This document shows positions 57,586 to 64,000 of a stretch of DNA of 64,000 nucleotides, one piece after another. Source of the stretch: Pelomonas cellulosilytica (GTDB lineage: Bacteria; Pseudomonadota; Gammaproteobacteria; Burkholderiales; Burkholderiaceae_C); assembly GCF_021353265.1 (NCBI RefSeq), contig NZ_JAJTWU010000006.1, positions 248,001 through 312,000 on the forward strand. The letters are read 5' to 3'. Every line of letters begins with the position of its first letter. Within the stretch, counting starts at the first letter, position 1. The translations under genes were made by a program, and so were the position numbers. A model generated the notes under the pieces. It was not told the DNA's origin. It was given only the letters and a program-made list of their open reading frames with translations, and made no database searches.

Positions 57586-58217
57586 TGCTTGAGACCTCCG
57601 TCAACCTTGTCTTGGCCGGGCGCCACCTCGAGAGGTTCGCCCGCTTGTTTCTTGGGAGCCGCCGCCTTCGGCATCTTCTTGGGCTTGATCACGCCCCGCT
57701 GGCCGGGCTTGCGGTCCGGCGCACGTTCGCCGCCTCGGCCCTTGAAGCTGATCACCGGCACGAGACGCGCGTCGCGCACCTCTTCCAGCGTGAAGTCCAG
57801 CGCCTGCTCGGCTGCACCGTCATCGAACACGATGCGCCAGGCCTGATCGCTGGCCACGTCCGGCTGCGTGCCCAGCACGCCGCGGTACTTCTTGCGTCCT
57901 TGGAACGACAGCTTCAGCGTGATGTCGATTTCCTGGCCGACGAAGCGCGCATAGTGCGCTGCGTTCCTCAGCGGCCGGTCGAGCCCCGGCGAGGACACCT
58001 CGAGCCGGGCGTAATCGAAGCCTTCGACCTCCAGTACGTACTGCAGCTGGCGGGTCACCTTCTCGCAGTCGTCCACCGTGATCAACTCGCCAGCATCGGC
58101 CTGGGCCGGCAGCTTGTCGATCGTCACGCGCAGCAGTCCGCCGGCACTGCGTTCGCAGTCCACGAGGTCGTAACCGAGGCCGGTCACGGTCGTTTCCACA
58201 GCGGTTTGCCAACTCAT
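57582..58217 (-). CDS. rimP: Ribosome maturation factor RimP
   Basis: 211 residues. Two-domain 30S assembly factor. Typical pieces are [57 protein letters not shown] and the [12 protein letters not shown]-type second domain. The C-terminal 40 residues are a Lys/Pro/Gly-rich extension beyond the E. coli size (150). First gene of the block; a sigma-70-like promoter lies about 140 nt upstream. Confidence 0.94.
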
Positions 58218-58355
58218 GCGGGATGCGCGTTCCTGATTCAGGGAAGAAAAACGAAAAGCAAAAAAAATGGGCTGGATGAATCCGCCCACCTCGTTCACCA
58301 AATCCTGCCTCCGGGGGATATCGTCCGGCGCGGGTTTTATTCTGGTGAAGCTCGT

Positions 58356-58384
58356 ATTGTACTGTGCAAGCCCCATGCCGGCAA
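58356..58384 (-). promoter_or_regulatory. Sigma-70-like promoter of the rimP-nusA-infB unit
   Basis: TTGCCG, a 17-nt spacer, then TACAAT on the minus strand: 4 of 6 and 5 of 6 matches to the consensus. A 15-bp palindrome, CCGGCAA-G-TTGCCGG (58378-58392), overlaps the -35 box and faces the fabI side as well. Confidence 0.6.
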
Positions 58385-58443
58385 GTTGCCGGGCCGCCGC
58401 ATGCCAGAATCGCGGGCTGTTTGGGACCTCACAGGAGACATGA

Positions 58444-59226
58444 ATGGGCTTTCTCGCCGGCAAGCGGCTGCTGATCACGGGCGTGCTGTCGAACCGCTCC
58501 ATCGCCTACGGCATCGCCCGCGCCTGCCACCGCGAAGGTGCCGAGCTGGCTTTCAGCTATCAGGGCGAGCGTTTCAAAGACCGCATCAGCGAATTCGCAG
58601 CGGAGTTTGGCTCCAGCCTGATCTACGACTGCGACGTGACCAGCGACGAGCAGATGGAAGCGCTGTTCAACCAACTGGGCGAGGTCTGGCCGGAGTTCGA
58701 CGGTTTCGTCCACTCCATCGGTTTCGCCCCGCGCGACGCGATTGCCGGCAACTTCCTCGACGGCATGACGCGCGAGAACTTCCGGATCGCCCACGACATC
58801 TCGGCTTACAGCTTCCCGGCGATGGCCAAGCTGGCCGTGCCCCGCCTGCGCCCCGGCGCCGCGCTGCTGACGCTGAGCTACCTCGGCGCCGAGCGTTACG
58901 TGCCTAACTACAACACGATGGGCCTGGCCAAGGCTGCGCTGGAAGCCAGCGTGCGCTACCTGGCCTACGACCTGGGCGCCAAGGGCGTGCGCGTCAACGG
59001 CATCTCGGCCGGCCCGATCAAGACGCTGGCCGCCTCGGGCATCAAGGATTTCGGCAAGCTGCTGACCCAGTTCGCCGCCTCCGCGCCGATCCGCCGCAAC
59101 GTGACGATCGATGACGTCGGCAATGCCGCTGCCTTCCTGATGTCCGACCTGGCCGCAGGCGTCAGCGCGGAGATCATGTATGTCGATGGCGGCTTCAGCC
59201 ACGTCGCCCTGGCCAGCGGCGAATAA
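58444..59226 (+). CDS. fabI: Enoyl-[acyl-carrier-protein] reductase (NADH) FabI
   Basis: 260 residues. The last reductase step of fatty acid elongation. Short-chain dehydrogenase fold with nucleotide-binding [15 protein letters not shown]. The catalytic Tyr/Lys pair falls in [38 protein letters not shown] and [24 protein letters not shown] complete the match. AGGAG ribosome site upstream; an overlapping ATG 4 nt earlier is out of frame. Followed by an intrinsic terminator. Confidence 0.97.
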
Positions 59227-59244
59227 CTCACACGCACCAACGAC

Positions 59245-59272
59245 AAGGGGGCCATCGGCCCCCTTTTGTTTT
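59245..59272 (+). terminator. Intrinsic terminator after fabI
   Basis: AAGGGGGCC-ATC-GGCCCCCTT stem, followed by TTGTTTT on the plus strand. It also lies just past the stop of the convergent decarboxylase gene, though the minus-strand T-tract is poor. Confidence 0.88.
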
Positions 59273-59275
59273 GCC

Positions 59276-61543
59276 TTACTGCTTGACGCAGTCGACGTAA
59301 TAGAAGCCGCGGCCCGTCTCTTCGTCGATCTCGTGCACGAGGCCGTGCACATCCGTCGCGAAGCCAGGGAACTTGGCATTGAAACTGCGCGTGAACTTCA
59401 GGTAATCGACGATCTTCTTGTTGAAGCGCTCCCCCGGGATCAGCAGCGGGATGCCCGGTGGGTAAGGCGTGAGCAGCGACGTCGTGATGCGGCCTTCCAG
59501 CTCATCGATGCCCACACGCTCCGTCTTGCGCTGGGCGATGTGGGCGTAGGCATCGGTGGGCGTCATGGCCGGCTGCAGATTGGACAGGTACATGTCGGTG
59601 GTTAGCCGCGCGATGTCACCCTCGGCATAGGCCAGGTGGATGGCCTGGCAGAGGTCGCGCAGGCCCATGCGCTCGTACTTCGGGAACTGCGCGCAGAACT
59701 CCGGCAGGATGCGCCACATCGGCGCATTCTTGTCGTAGTCATCCTTGAACTGCTGCAGTGCGGTCAGCAGCGTGTTCCAGCGGCCCTTGGTGATGCCGAT
59801 GGTGAACATGATGAAGAACGAGTAGAGGCCCGTCTTCTCGACGACGACGCCATGCTCGACGAGGAACTTCGTGACGACGGACGCCGGAATGCCGCTGGCG
59901 GCGAAGCGCCCTTCCATGTCCAGCCCGGGCGTGATGATGGTGGACTTGATCGGGTCCAGCATGTTGAAGCCTTCGGCCAGCGCGCCGAAGCCATGCCAGT
60001 CCTCGTCGGCGTGCAGCATCCAGTCGGCAGACACCGGCTCGCTGCCCTCTTCCGCGCGCAGGTAATCCGGCCCCCAGACCTTGAACCACCAGTCGTCGCC
60101 GTAGTCGGCCTCCACCTTGCGCATCGCGCGGCGGAAGTCGAGCGACTCCTTGATGCTCTCCTCAACGAGCGCCGTGCCGCCGGGCGGCTCCATCATGGCG
60201 GCCGCCACATCGCAGCTCGCAATAATCGAGTACTGCGGCGACGTCGACGTGTGCATCAAATAGGCCTCGTTGAAGAGGTGCTTGTCCAGCTTGACCGTCT
60301 GCGAGTCCTGCACCAGCACTTGTGACGCCTGCGAGATGCCGGCCAGCAGCTTGTGCGTGGACTGCGTCGCGTAGACGACCGCCTCCTTCGGGCGCGGGCG
60401 GTTCTTACCCATCGCATGGAACTGGCCGTAGAAGTCGTGGAAGGCCGCGTGCGGCAGCCAGGCCTCGTCGAAGTGCAGCGTCGGGATGTAGCCGTCGAGC
60501 TTCTTCTTGATCGTCTCGGTGTTGTAGAGCACACCGTCGTAGGTGCTCTGTGTCAGCGTCACGATGGACGGCTTGACGTTCGCCGCATCGACATGCGCCA
60601 ACAGCGGGTTGGCGGCGATCTTGGCGCGGATGGCCTCCGGGCTGAACTCGCTCTCCGGGATGGGGCCGATGATGCCGTAGTGGTTGCGCGTGGGCGTCAG
60701 GAAGACTGGAATCGCACCGCACATGATGATGGCGTGCAGGTTGCTCTTGTGGCAATTGCGGTCGATGACGACGACGTCGCCCGGCGCGACCGTGTGATGC
60801 CACACCATCTTGTTGGACGTGGACGTGCCGTTGGTGACAAAGAAGCAGTGGTCGGCATTGAAGATGCGCGCTGCGTTCTTCTCGCTGGCCGCAACGGGGC
60901 CCGTGTGGTCCAGCAACTGGCCAAGTTCCTCGACGGCATTGCAGACGTCGGCGCGCAGCATGTTCTCGCCGAAGAACTGGTGGAACATCTGGCCCACGGG
61001 GCTCTTCAGAAAGGCAACGCCGCCGGAGTGCCCCGGGCAATGCCACGAGTAGGAGCCGTCGGCTGCGTAGTCCATCAGCGCCTTGAAGAACGGCGGCGCC
61101 AGGCCATCGAGGTAGCTCTTGGCCTCGCGGATGATGTGGCGCGCCACGAACTCCGGCGTGTCCTCGAACATGTGGATGAATCCGTGCAGCTCGCGCAGCA
61201 CGTCGTTCGGCAGATGCTGACTCGTGCGCGTCTCGCCGTAGACGTAGATCGGGATGTCAGGGTTTCGGAAGCGGATCTCCTCGATGAACTTGCGAAGGTT
61301 CAGCACCGCCGGATCGAGGTCGGGGCCGGGCGTGAACTCCTCGTCGTCGATCGACAGGATGAAGGCGGACGCGCGGCTCTGCTGCTGGGCGAACTGCGAC
61401 AGGTCGCCATAGCTTGTCACACCCAGCACCTCCATACCCTCCTTTTGGATGGCTTCGGCCAACGCGCGGATGCCCAGGCCCGAGGTGTTCTCGGAGCGGT
61501 AGTCCTCATCGATGATGACGATGGGAAAGTGAAAACGGATCAT
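59276..61543 (-). CDS. Biodegradative-type arginine/lysine/ornithine decarboxylase
   Basis: 755 residues, with the N-terminal wing domain (MIRFHFPIVIIDEDYRSENTSG...) of the large inducible decarboxylases. The PLP core has the Schiff-base Lys in ATQSTHKLLAGISQASQ and the WHCPGHSGGVAF motif; the C-terminal domain includes TPYPPGIPLLIPGERF. Which of arginine, lysine or ornithine is used cannot be decided from motifs alone. No antiporter or regulator gene lies adjacent, so an acid-resistance role is not shown. Convergent with fabI. Confidence 0.9.
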   Translation of the reverse strand: MIRFHFPIVIIDEDYRSENTSGLGIRALAEAIQKEGMEVLGVTSYGDLSQFAQQQSRASAFILSIDDEEFTPGPDLDPAVLNLRKFIEEIRFRNPDIPIYVYGETRTSQHLPNDVLRELHGFIHMFEDTPEFVARHIIREAKSYLDGLAPPFFKALMDYAADGSYSWHCPGHSGGVAFLKSPVGQMFHQFFGENMLRADVCNAVEELGQLLDHTGPVAASEKNAARIFNADHCFFVTNGTSTSNKMVWHHTVAPGDVVVIDRNCHKSNLHAIIMCGAIPVFLTPTRNHYGIIGPIPESEFSPEAIRAKIAANPLLAHVDAANVKPSIVTLTQSTYDGVLYNTETIKKKLDGYIPTLHFDEAWLPHAAFHDFYGQFHAMGKNRPRPKEAVVYATQSTHKLLAGISQASQVLVQDSQTVKLDKHLFNEAYLMHTSTSPQYSIIASCDVAAAMMEPPGGTALVEESIKESLDFRRAMRKVEADYGDDWWFKVWGPDYLRAEEGSEPVSADWMLHADEDWHGFGALAEGFNMLDPIKSTIITPGLDMEGRFAASGIPASVVTKFLVEHGVVVEKTGLYSFFIMFTIGITKGRWNTLLTALQQFKDDYDKNAPMWRILPEFCAQFPKYERMGLRDLCQAIHLAYAEGDIARLTTDMYLSNLQPAMTPTDAYAHIAQRKTERVGIDELEGRITTSLLTPYPPGIPLLIPGERFNKKIVDYLKFTRSFNAKFPGFATDVHGLVHEIDEETGRGFYYVDCVKQ

Positions 61544-61666
61544 CGGCGGCCTCCAGCGGGCGGGCATCAAAAAACGAAGCGGCGAAGTGTAGGGCCGCGA
61601 TGTGTTCGGCCTGTGTCGTTGCCGTCTATACACTGGACTGAAACGAAGGGGATGAGAGGAGACACG

Positions 61667-62095
61667 ATGGACTGGAATCCGGCCACCGTCTGGTGGGTCG
61701 CAGCGGGCGCGCTCGTGGCAGCCGAGCTGACCACCGGCACGTTCTATCTGCTGATGCTCGCGCTGGGCGCTGCTGCCGGCGCCATGGCCGCCCACGGAGG
61801 GCTGGCCTCCTCTTCTCAGATGCTGGCTGCCGCGCTGGTCGGCGGCATCGCCGTCGTGGGCTGGCACCTGCGCCGTGACCGCCTGCCGGCACCGGCTGGC
61901 AGCAACCCCGACGTCAATCTCGACATTGGCCAGCGCGTGCAGGTGGACACCTGGACACCCGACGGCCGCGCGCAGGTCCACTACCGCGGCGCAGCCTGGC
62001 AGGCGCGCTTCGTCGGCACCCCACCCGCTCCGAGTGGCGCCTATGTCATCCGGGCGCTGGAAGGCAACTGCCTGCTACTGGACCGCGAGGCCTGA
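61667..62095 (+). CDS. NfeD family protein
   Basis: 142 residues. Two to three membrane helices (about 5-70) are followed by a small C-terminal OB-fold (VNLDIGQRVQVDTW ... VHYRGAAWQARFV). It is the short NfeD form without the ClpP-like protease domain. NfeD proteins pair with SPFH proteins, and the SPFH gene follows after 4 nt. The start at 61667 has AGGAG 6 nt upstream, preferred over an ATG at 61652. Confidence 0.88.
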   Translation: MDWNPATVWWVAAGALVAAELTTGTFYLLMLALGAAAGAMAAHGGLASSSQMLAAALVGGIAVVGWHLRRDRLPAPAGSNPDVNLDIGQRVQVDTWTPDGRAQVHYRGAAWQARFVGTPPAPSGAYVIRALEGNCLLLDREA

Positions 62096-62099
62096 ACCA

Positions 62100-63032
62100 A
62101 TGTTTCCCGAAAGCACTTCCATGACCGTTGCCCTCGTCCTGCTCGTCATCGCCGCCATCTTCATCGTCCGCTCGATCAAGGTCGTGCCACAGCAGCACGC
62201 ATGGGTCGTCGAGCGGCTGGGCAAGTACCACGCCACGCTGACCCCCGGCCTGAACTTCCTCGTGCCATTTGTGGACCGCCTGGCCTACAAGCACTTGCTG
62301 AAGGAGATCCCGCTCGACGTGCCCAGCCAGATCTGCATCACCAAGGACAACACGCAACTGACGGTGGATGGCATCCTGTATTTCCAGGTCACCGACCCCA
62401 TGCGCGCCAGCTACGGCGCGAGCAACTACGTCGTGGCCATCACCCAGCTGGCCCAGACCACGCTGCGCTCCGTCATCGGCCGCATGGAACTGGATCGCAC
62501 GTTCGAGGAGCGCGACGTGATCAACAGCTCTGTCGTGCAGGCGCTGGACGAGGCGGCGCTGAACTGGGGCGTCAAGGTGCTCCGCTACGAAATCAAGGAT
62601 CTGACGCCGCCGCCGGCCATCCTGCATTCGATGCAGGCGCAGATCACCGCCGAGCGCGAAAAGCGCGCACTGATCGCAGCGTCCGAGGGCCGCCGCCAGG
62701 AACAGATCAACATCGCCACCGGCGAACGCGAGGCGGCGATCGCCAAGTCGGAAGGCCAAAAACAGGCGGAGATCAACAAGGCCCAGGGCGAGGCGGCCGC
62801 CATCACGGCGGTGGCCGACGCCACGTCGGACGCCATCCGCAAGATCGCCGCGGCGATCCAGCAGCCCGGCGGCGATCAGGCGGTGCAGCTGAAAGTGGCG
62901 GAAAAGGCGGTGGAGGCCTTTGCGCAGCTCGCCCAGAAGAACAACACGATGATCGTGCCGGGGAACGTCAGCGAAGTCGCAGGCCTGATCGGCACGGCGA
63001 TGGGATTGCTCAAGGCCGGCAACAAGGCCTGA
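62100..63032 (+). CDS. SPFH domain/band 7 family membrane protein
   Basis: 310 residues. One N-terminal helix (about 8-24), the band 7 domain (SIKVVPQQHAWVVERLGKYHATLTPGLNFLVPFVD...), then a coiled-coil with repeated Ala/Glu/Lys (SEGRRQEQINIATGEREAAIAKSEGQKQAEINKAQ). It resembles the paraslipin/QmcA group. It assembles into membrane microdomain rings, and with the adjacent NfeD forms a known pair. Start is 62100, 4 nt after nfeD, with GAGG upstream; 62121 is an alternative. Confidence 0.93.
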   Translation: MFPESTSMTVALVLLVIAAIFIVRSIKVVPQQHAWVVERLGKYHATLTPGLNFLVPFVDRLAYKHLLKEIPLDVPSQICITKDNTQLTVDGILYFQVTDPMRASYGASNYVVAITQLAQTTLRSVIGRMELDRTFEERDVINSSVVQALDEAALNWGVKVLRYEIKDLTPPPAILHSMQAQITAEREKRALIAASEGRRQEQINIATGEREAAIAKSEGQKQAEINKAQGEAAAITAVADATSDAIRKIAAAIQQPGGDQAVQLKVAEKAVEAFAQLAQKNNTMIVPGNVSEVAGLIGTAMGLLKAGNKA

Positions 63033-63047
63033 ACATCAGCCCAATGC

Positions 63048-63088
63048 AAAAAAGCCCGCGAGGGCCCTGGTGAAGGGCGGTCGCGGGC
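63048..63088 (-). terminator. Intrinsic terminator, minus strand
   Basis: GCCCGCGA/TCGCGGGC outer stem (8 bp) with an inner GCCCT/AGGGC stem, and TTTTTT on the minus strand (AAAAAA at 63048-63053). It terminates transcription coming from the LuxR-side region. It is not oriented for the SPFH gene on the plus strand. Confidence 0.88.
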
Positions 63089-63095
63089 ACAAAGA

Positions 63096-63137
63096 CGTTC
63101 GGGGGGCGCCGAACGAAAGCGGTGAGGAGACGCTTTC
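63096..63137 (-). ncRNA. Two stem-loops in a putative small transcript
   Basis: On the minus strand, GAAAGCG-N9-CGCTTTC (63115-63137) and CGTTCGG-N6-CCGAACG (63096-63115) form two 7-bp hairpins, directly upstream of the terminator. With the terminator stem they give a three-hairpin 3' end, typical of small RNAs. The 5' end is not known. Confidence 0.5.
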
Positions 63138-63141
63138 CTGA

Positions 63142-63192
63142 TCAGCCGCCGAAATAGGGCAGACCGAGAACTTCGTAAATCAGTTTCCACAT
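63142..63192 (-). CDS. Putative 16-residue peptide downstream of luxR
   Basis: MWKLIYEVLGLPYFGG, 16 codons then TGA. The ATG has GGAG with a 6-nt spacer, one of the better ribosome sites near here. The sequence is hydrophobic and aromatic-rich, with a Pro-Tyr-Phe-Gly-Gly end. It starts 106 nt after the LuxR stop on the same strand and is followed by three hairpins and a terminator. I do not recognise it. It could be a micropeptide, a leader peptide, or a chance frame inside a small RNA. Confidence 0.5.
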   Translation of the reverse strand: MWKLIYEVLGLPYFGG

Positions 63193-63262
63193 GCTGAGCT
63201 CCATCGGCCTAGTGGCCAAAAATCGATGAAGTCAGTGTCCCGGACGACTCGCAGTTAGGGAA

Positions 63263-63278
63263 CTACAAACCCTTGTAG
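63263..63278. promoter_or_regulatory. Lux-box-like dyad downstream of luxR
   Basis: CTACAAACCCTTGTAG, a 16-bp sequence with 6-bp inverted arms. Its CT-N12-AG spacing is that of lux boxes. It begins 20 nt after the LuxR stop and lies about 71 nt upstream of the 16-codon frame. A 10-bp palindrome AGTGGCCACT adjoins it. No convincing -10 element is visible at the classic distance. Confidence 0.4.
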
Positions 63279-63297
63279 TGGCCACTGCGCCTTGTGG

Positions 63298-63999
63298 CTA
63301 CAGCAGCCCTAGTTCCATCGCCTTCAGAACCGCGTGGTTCTTGGTCGAGACGTCCAACGCCCGGAACAGCTGCTTCATGTGGTAATTGACGGTGTTCTCG
63401 CTGATGCCGAGAAGGCTTCCCACCACCCACGCGCTCTTGCCATCCATCGTCAGGCGGAGGATTTCCAGCTGCCGGGCACTCAGCTTGGGCGCCGCCACAG
63501 GCATGAGCAGACGGGACGCAGCATCCTGTGCATGCACGGCCAGCAGCTGAAGGTCGGCCAACATCCGACTCAGCTTCACCGGATCAGTCGGAAGCGGGCG
63601 CTCCCGGTCAACGCCGAGCAGGAAGCGTCGGTAGCCTGGCATATGCACACTGACAGCCAGGCCGGTGCGGTACCCGAACGGCGCTTGCATCTCCCAGAGG
63701 TCACCCGCCCCTGCGTCAACGTAGAGACGCTGGTCGTAGATGAGCGGTGCAGCATTGCGCATCACGTGGCGGTGCACCGGATCGCGTTGCGCATTCTCGG
63801 CATTGCTGGCCGCAGCAAGGAACTCCGGCGGCGTGTTGCCGATGGGGATGTACTCCGATTTGCCGCCGACACCTCGCTCGATGGCCAGCACTCCGGCGAT
63901 GAGCCCGAAGTCCATGTCGTGCGCGAAGTCGATCAGCCCCTGCCGGAAATCCGCGAAGTTTTTCGCTTGGCTGACTTGTTCGTACCGCTGCAAGTTCAT
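63298..63999 (-). CDS. LuxR-type regulator with autoinducer-binding domain
   Basis: 233 residues: N-terminal autoinducer-binding domain (about 15-165) and C-terminal LuxR HTH (about 170-230, LSARQLEILRLTMDGKSAWVVGSLLGISENTVNYHMKQL). Aligned without gaps to LuxR, the ligand-pocket residues corresponding to Trp57, Tyr61 and Trp85 of TraR are Phe60, Ala64 and Tyr88. Asp73 and Pro74 are kept. This suggests a non-AHL or altered ligand. The start ATG is at the right edge with one base beyond it, so the promoter and any luxI are unseen. Confidence 0.85.
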   Translation of the reverse strand: MNLQRYEQVSQAKNFADFRQGLIDFAHDMDFGLIAGVLAIERGVGGKSEYIPIGNTPPEFLAAASNAENAQRDPVHRHVMRNAAPLIYDQRLYVDAGAGDLWEMQAPFGYRTGLAVSVHMPGYRRFLLGVDRERPLPTDPVKLSRMLADLQLLAVHAQDAASRLLMPVAAPKLSARQLEILRLTMDGKSAWVVGSLLGISENTVNYHMKQLFRALDVSTKNHAVLKAMELGLL

Positions 64000-64000
64000 C

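Follow-up and report, generated by a model that had tools for sequence, protein, structure and literature searches.

The window analysed in this study is a stretch of 64,000 nucleotides from Pelomonas cellulosilytica, whose genome measures 6.35 Mb, and the locus of interest lies near its right-hand end, on the contig labelled C26. There, a LuxR-type receptor gene is followed on the minus strand by a short unit with these features:

63298..63999, minus strand: LuxR-type receptor gene with Autoind_bind and GerE domains and an altered AHL site (T56, F60, A64, Y88; D73 kept)
63263..63278, minus strand: lux-box-like CT-N12-AG dyad CTACAAGGGTTTGTAG, perfect, in the peptide promoter, 70 nt 5' of the ATG (read from the sequence)
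63199..63262, minus strand: 5' leader, with a predicted hairpin that pairs the Shine-Dalgarno region GGAG at 63202-63199 (single folds)
63142..63192, minus strand: peptide gene, MWKLIYEVLGLPYFGG plus stop, ATG at 63192; proposed pheromone precursor with the C-terminal core LPYFGG (frame and conservation)
63115..63137, minus strand: 3' hairpin 1, GAAAGCG/CGCTTTC, loop TCTCCTCAC (sequence and congener alignment)
63096..63115, minus strand: 3' hairpin 2, CGTTCGG/CCGAACG, loop CGCCCC (sequence and congener alignment)
63048..63088, minus strand: intrinsic terminator, a G+C-rich hairpin and six Ts at 63053-63048 (fold; two pairs with compensatory changes)

The dyad, the GGAG, the 16-codon frame, the hairpins and the terminator had all been placed here by a first-pass annotation, and each was found on the minus strand where it had been reported. 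Its description of two 7-bp hairpins holds for hairpin 2 but not quite for hairpin 1, which has 6 bp plus a seventh pair that would compete with the first pair of hairpin 2. Its view that no known family matches the element agrees with the Rfam search, which gave 0 matches up to an E-value of 1 in positions 58000-64000. The folding energy of the window's RNA is 3 s.d. below that of shuffles, and the peptide, the box, the hairpins and the terminator are all kept in congeners; the layout is more than chance.

Within the leader of the peptide mRNA (63199-63240), the ribosome site is predicted to lie in or beside the arm of a hairpin, and likewise in many congeners. In single folds of the 15 genus loci, many show a hairpin close to the start, which is suggestive only, and the consensus fold of the leader and coding part across congeners gave no useful structure, two subgroups of congeners seeming to use different registers of the leader hairpin. 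The predicted leader hairpin and the anti-Shine-Dalgarno-like 3' loop together suggest translational control of the peptide mRNA.

The peptide adjoins a close LuxR orthologue in 14 of 19 congeners (the LuxR of the remaining five is more distant), with the box and the peptide downstream of LuxR in all 14 and in the window genome. In 11 of the 14, the DNA match continues, unbroken or in two parts, into the convergent SPFH gene. The C-terminal ends of the peptides are constant, e.g. MWKLIAEVFGLPYTGG, MWSLIAELLGLPYGGGN, and MEKVSFWDVVAELLGFPFTGG. Over the last 15 codons of the 15 sequences, pS is 0.66 as against a pN of 0.23, and each of the two shifted frames contains a stop in 8 of the 15. The frame has been kept with synonymous changes in relatives, and the lux-type box has been kept with it, so that the proposal of a separate unit, linked to LuxR and containing a true micropeptide gene, stands. 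Purifying selection on the peptide frame is indicated by this pattern of substitution, by which the 16-codon frame is judged to be a conserved gene. That the peptide is a chance frame was considered and ruled out by pS and pN, and by the test of its core against shuffles described below.

The stretch after the stop codon has a mean column identity of 90% in 14 of the 15 genus loci, the fifteenth (G017) with its degraded array being left out of this figure, whereas the leader and coding part reach 63% in all 15. The loop of hairpin 1 reads CACCTCC in 11 of the 14 aligned loci and could pair with ribosome sites. The hairpin array is thus kept in the genus, but the stems of the two 3' hairpins are nearly invariant, so that no covariation is seen in them; in the terminator, two compensatory pairs were found. 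When an RNA model was run against 60 genomes, its strong matches were only the 14 sequences from which it had been built, with four weak ones in addition (G017's own locus, G019 again, G026, and G076), and at 59 peptide loci of other clades the matches were weak only. A search for hairpin 2 by itself in 100 genomes gave 14 places, spread over 13 genomes; 13 of these places are at this locus and one is in G019. Since the model is only weak in other clades and hairpin 2 is nearly confined to this locus, a small RNA function of the 3' element is a fair hypothesis for this genus group only.

In the G019 copy (L076, contig C20, 2011-2107 and 2299-2314), a C-rich hairpin and terminator lie near a perfect palindrome, CTGTCAAGCTTGACAG, beside another LuxR. 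No recognised peptide core is nearby, and the assembly is 6% contaminated. This copy is perhaps a LuxR-controlled RNA on its own.

The LuxR of the window has both the Autoind_bind domain (PF03472, E 1e-15) and the GerE domain (PF00196, E 1.2e-12), and the tetratricopeptide-repeat features of RRNPP receptors are absent from it. Its predicted fold (pLDDT 91) is like those of QscR, RhlR, SdiA, and LasR. In LasR, we take Y56, W60, and D73 to be AHL contacts, W60 touching the lactone and D73 the AHL amide. When 79 LuxRs were aligned to LasR, this tryptophan was absent in 77; position 60 holds F or Y in 76 and W in 2. T is found at position 56 in 58 of the receptors, and V at position 75 in 77. Among six control LuxRs, four of them beside luxI, Y56, W60, and T75 are kept in five. 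An acyl ligand may still be accepted by these receptors, since D73 is kept in 78 of the 79. No match to luxI (PF00765) was found in the window's genome; eight of the 19 congeners have luxI-family matches that are weak, at 25-35 bits, and above the family cut-off.

A dyad between LuxR and the peptide gene, 62-83 nt before the start (median 76), is present in 75 of 77 loci at a criterion of at least five of six palindromic positions, at which mononucleotide shuffles contain one in 109 of 3850 cases. The box pattern CTACNANNNTTNGTAG has 2 matches in the 6.35-Mb genome, a number that is uninformative by itself as the reversed control pattern also has 2. Both matches to the box are at this locus, about 750 bases apart and flanking LuxR; the second box, CTACTAGGGTTGGTAG, lies between LuxR and the divergent neighbour gene. 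Across the 15 genus genomes there are 17 box sites, 15 at the peptide promoter (one per genome) and two elsewhere, with 2 control sites. Of 12 genomes with the other box, 11 contain sites, 12 in all; 10 of these sites are at peptide promoters, and control sites number 0; G118 has no exact box site, and in G032 the site is on a different contig from its examined LuxR. The sites are mostly those of the circuit itself, and no target genes beyond it were found by the box search of these genomes.

The edge of the window falls just upstream of LuxR, and the neighbouring gene, divergent from LuxR (L002, 7089-7472), lies outside it. This gene is a homologue of RsaM. Such a homologue stands opposite LuxR in 72 of 80 loci by simple extraction, and 31 of 38 members of the divergent-gene family match PF16245 (DUF4902) at E<=0.1. 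A profile of the divergent gene matches the solved RsaM homologue 4O2H with an E-value of 1e-4, and the best fold match of its model is again 4o2h, with a TM of 0.67. The member from the window's genome and the first Roseateles member are below the Pfam curated cut-off for PF16245, and therefore the identification rests on family and fold; an NCBIfam search with the RsaM-like gene gave no match.

To place the locus in a wider context, an alignment of 24 LuxRs was used as the query in a survey of 84,980 species, one genome per species. Of the 243 relatives found, the best 80 were retained; the closest named relatives are Roseateles and Pelomonas, by which the host would be Roseateles-like. Among these best 80 of the 243, a peptide gene was found beside LuxR in all 78 loci that could be judged, the contig ending too soon after LuxR in L139 and L157. 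In 69 of the 78, automatic picking of the first ATG frame preceded by a 4-base ribosome site gave the peptide; in seven the site is weaker, L104 was read from the frames, and in L124 the gene is on the opposite strand. The peptide core was recognised by eye in the 78 loci, and a stricter automatic test was passed by 65 of the 78 as against 57 of 1560 dinucleotide shuffles. In the frames after 22 other LuxR-like ORFs at 20 control loci, some of these ORFs being partial or overlapping and frames having been picked only if they were on the plus strand, began with ATG, and had a 4-base ribosome site, no such core was seen by eye. The shared core has about six residues, like L-P-[KRY]-x-G-[GW], the commonest form being [LFSA]-P-[KRY]-[GTV]-[GT]-[WG]. 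The short types of the peptide have 16-24 residues, most with a hydrophobic stretch ahead of the core. By these comparisons, the locus is judged to be genuine and conserved and to belong to a large family of receptor-peptide pairs.

The peptide gene of Rubrivivax benzoatilyticus (L124, 4943-4996; MWDIIAEILGFPRTGGL) points the opposite way to LuxR, an orientation that suggests that this gene is transcribed as a unit of its own. In G124 (L066, contig C143, 8639-12418), there are five tandem places that match the LuxR family; only the last of these is followed by a recognised peptide, and a C39 exporter is near it. None of the seven tandem LuxR paralogues of G019 and G124 has a recognised peptide of its own.

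The window peptide lacks a double-glycine leader, but a leader of this type was found in 48 of the 78 precursors by a rough rule that admits GA and GS as well. When three further precursors were added to these 48, more than one core was present in 30 of the 51 leader-type precursors. There are up to three copies in the named set, four in G047 (L065, SPKGTW), and five in G104 (L079, GPNGGW). Roseateles asaccharophilus, an environmental species of the leader type, has the core APKNTW. All copies are identical in 26 of the 30 multi-core precursors and differ in four (L108, L110, L135, and L159). Between copies, over all multi-core precursors of the set, pS is 0.35 and pN 0.02, the latter being lowered somewhat by the motif with which the copies were found, as it fixes P and, save in two patterns, W. 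In the 24 precursors whose copies were chosen as identical, 55 of 165 codons differ, a count that is circular as a test of selection. From pS and pN between copies, it appears that the residues of the core are held by selection while the DNA drifts.

Of 47 leader-type loci, 45 have a C39-peptidase ABC transporter no more than 3.6 kb downstream, as against 0 of 30 short-type loci (Fisher p 2e-19), the two types having been split by a rough rule of sequence and length and L111, L139, and L157 having been left out because their contigs end. No C39-type match is present on the window's contig C26, and two matches are on other contigs of the same genome; in G030, which has a leaderless peptide, no C39 match was found anywhere in the genome. 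The short types fall into two groups of the LuxR tree, with 29 rows, the window among them, in the first and three in the second, and both groups lie among the leader types. The bootstrap of this tree is not fully settled, its control branches are long, and its midpoint root is arbitrary, so that the direction of change is itself inferred. The simplest history would be that the leader and the exporter were lost, twice.

It is fairly probable that the locus is a self-contained LuxR quorum-sensing cassette in which a ribosomal peptide pheromone takes the place of an AHL synthase. This reading starts from what is observed, namely the gene and its conservation, the box, the partner genes, the repeated cores, the exporter linkage, and the altered receptor site. 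A possible scheme can be described as follows. Basal transcription would make some precursor, and LuxR would bind the CT-N12-AG box and drive the adjacent peptide gene, the activating ligand being a short peptide with the core L-P-x-x-G-[GW], in the window probably LPYFGG. In most relatives, the core would be cut from its double-glycine leader and exported by the linked C39-peptidase ABC transporter; it would then accumulate, re-enter the cell, and bind LuxR, which at the box would raise transcription of the peptide gene. The feedback would thus be positive, as that given by luxI in AHL systems, and the divergent RsaM homologue, with the second box, would tune or restrain the circuit. Binding of the peptide to LuxR, activation, secretion, uptake, and the exact mature ends are the steps that we infer. 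The window's branch would have lost both the leader and the linked exporter, and its 16-residue precursor would either be exported and trimmed by unlinked or other machinery or act inside the cell. As the window has neither a leader nor a linked transporter, export is the weakest link for its case.

A more general form of the proposal is that LuxRs of Burkholderiales sense ribosomal hexapeptide pheromones encoded next to them, in a luxR-rsaM cassette from which luxI was lost or in which it was always absent; many species would have precursors with multiple identical cores and a dedicated exporter, and the window's branch 16 codons with a 3' RNA element, so that one LuxR-controlled transcript would hold both a pheromone and a candidate small RNA. 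For this fuller statement, the chances appear evenly balanced.

The main rival is an intracellular role: the peptide would not leave the cell and would act on LuxR as a partner or antagonist (an anti- or co-activator) in a cell-autonomous loop, the leader forms being a secreted branch. The window type, without a leader or a linked exporter, would fit this role, as would the 16-24 residues of the short types with a hydrophobic stretch ahead of the core in most of them. Inhibitors of LuxR such as TraM and Aqs1 exist, and anti-activation and LasR-Aqs1 complexes were among the titles of the structures matched. However, the conserved part of the short peptides is the C-terminal core that is common to the exported types, and the short types stand among the leader types in the tree; these two facts suggest that short and exported types share a ligand role. 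Since secretion leaders, repeated cores, and linked exporters occur in the longer relatives, the analysis favours a secreted signal over a regulatory micropeptide, and the intracellular role is held to be rather unlikely.

Two other accounts move the weight away from the peptide as ligand. The peptide may be an effector or natural product, such as a bacteriocin or a modified peptide, made under a LuxR that senses something else; double-glycine leaders and C39 exporters serve bacteriocins too. LuxR solos are also described as often controlling neighbour genes (PMC4338825). Nevertheless, cores of about six residues in up to five mostly identical copies, box sites mostly at the peptide gene, and an altered AHL site make an effector improbable. 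Alternatively, the main product may be a regulatory RNA whose C-rich, anti-Shine-Dalgarno-like loops act on other mRNAs, with the peptide secondary or the coding part of a dual-function RNA. The greater likeness of the 3' part than of the leader and coding part within the genus agrees with this account, and so does the distribution of hairpin 2, whose single place away from this locus is near another LuxR without a recognised peptide. It is nonetheless improbable, as the RNA model is only weak at the 59 loci outside the genus group whereas the peptide is general in the clade, and the stems lack covariation and an Rfam match.

The peptide-pheromone reading can be set against known systems. Signals of the ComC/ComA type have double-glycine leaders and C39-peptidase ABC exporters, and the relatives share with them a leader ending in GG and a linked bifunctional exporter. 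However, their receptor is a histidine kinase, whereas here it is a LuxR, often with several copies of a core of about six residues, and the window type has neither the leader nor the linked exporter. For the 3' element, the cuckoo-type sRNAs of alphaproteobacteria, with C-rich loops, and the sibling sRNAs of Neisseria share tandem stem-loops, anti-Shine-Dalgarno-like loops, and a small adjacent coding gene; the element here differs in sequence, has no Rfam match, and has a betaproteobacterial host. Gram-positive systems such as Rgg/SHP, ComS, and RRNPP have a tiny precursor, a mature oligopeptide at its C-terminus, and autoinduction by a cytoplasmic receptor, as proposed here. Their receptor is a tetratricopeptide-repeat protein of the Rgg/PlcR kind, whereas here it is of LuxR type and the hosts are Gram-negative. 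The RRNPP peptide systems are treated in PMC13220807.

The nearest precedent is PipR. In PipR/OryR, a LuxR homologue is reported to respond to Ser-His-Ser and to peptide-like plant signals via an ABC importer (PMC4981722), and the shared feature is a LuxR homologue with a peptide as its signal, here a proposed one. There the signal is foreign and the neighbours are peptidases and an importer, but here a peptide precursor lies beside the receptor, with an exporter in the leader types. The W57M and Y61W changes described for PipR/OryR solos (PMC4338825) are absent from the window's LuxR, which has F and A at the aligned places. With LuxR/LuxI and RsaM systems, the locus shares the receptor domains, the CT-N12-AG box, the position of an autoregulated signal gene, and an RsaM homologue divergent from a LuxR solo; it differs in that no luxI was found, a ribosomal peptide gene is in its place, and the lactone-contact tryptophan is lost. 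The divergent rsaM-luxR arrangement is type 6 of a review of RsaM, which names Pelomonas and Kinneretia among such solos (PMC10710839), and a peptide gene is not mentioned for them in the sections of that review concerned with these solos.

No description of a ribosomal peptide signal paired with LuxR was found in the open-licence full-text literature, and a subscription paper or preprint could exist. The pairing is new as far as searches reach, and a peptide quorum-sensing system of LuxR type is probable from the comparisons above. LuxR solos are common, and many of them have no known ligand. Here, a whole clade of them comes with a likely ligand in the adjacent gene, often in several copies, and because it is encoded next to its receptor it can be synthesised and tested at once. 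If true, the proposal would join lactone-LuxR quorum sensing of Gram-negative bacteria and peptide quorum sensing of Gram-positive bacteria in one receptor family, would offer natural receptor-peptide pairs with differing cores for studies of specificity, and would show that very short frames, often skipped by gene callers, can hide signals.

The window's genome has a second LuxR-peptide pair (L063, 9604-10344; LuxR at C26:37106-37819) with the peptide MSLIDLVYSVLGIPRVGC, a different box, CTGGCAGACCTTCTAG, and its own DUF4902 match at C26:37991-38257. Two parallel LuxR-peptide circuits may therefore coexist in this genome. At L167 (G047, C179:83500-88500), a double-glycine frame beginning MNETLKQLSELEIEAVSGG, without the core, lies 19 nt after a more distant LuxR-like ORF, which hints that the pairing of LuxR and peptide may extend beyond this LuxR clade.
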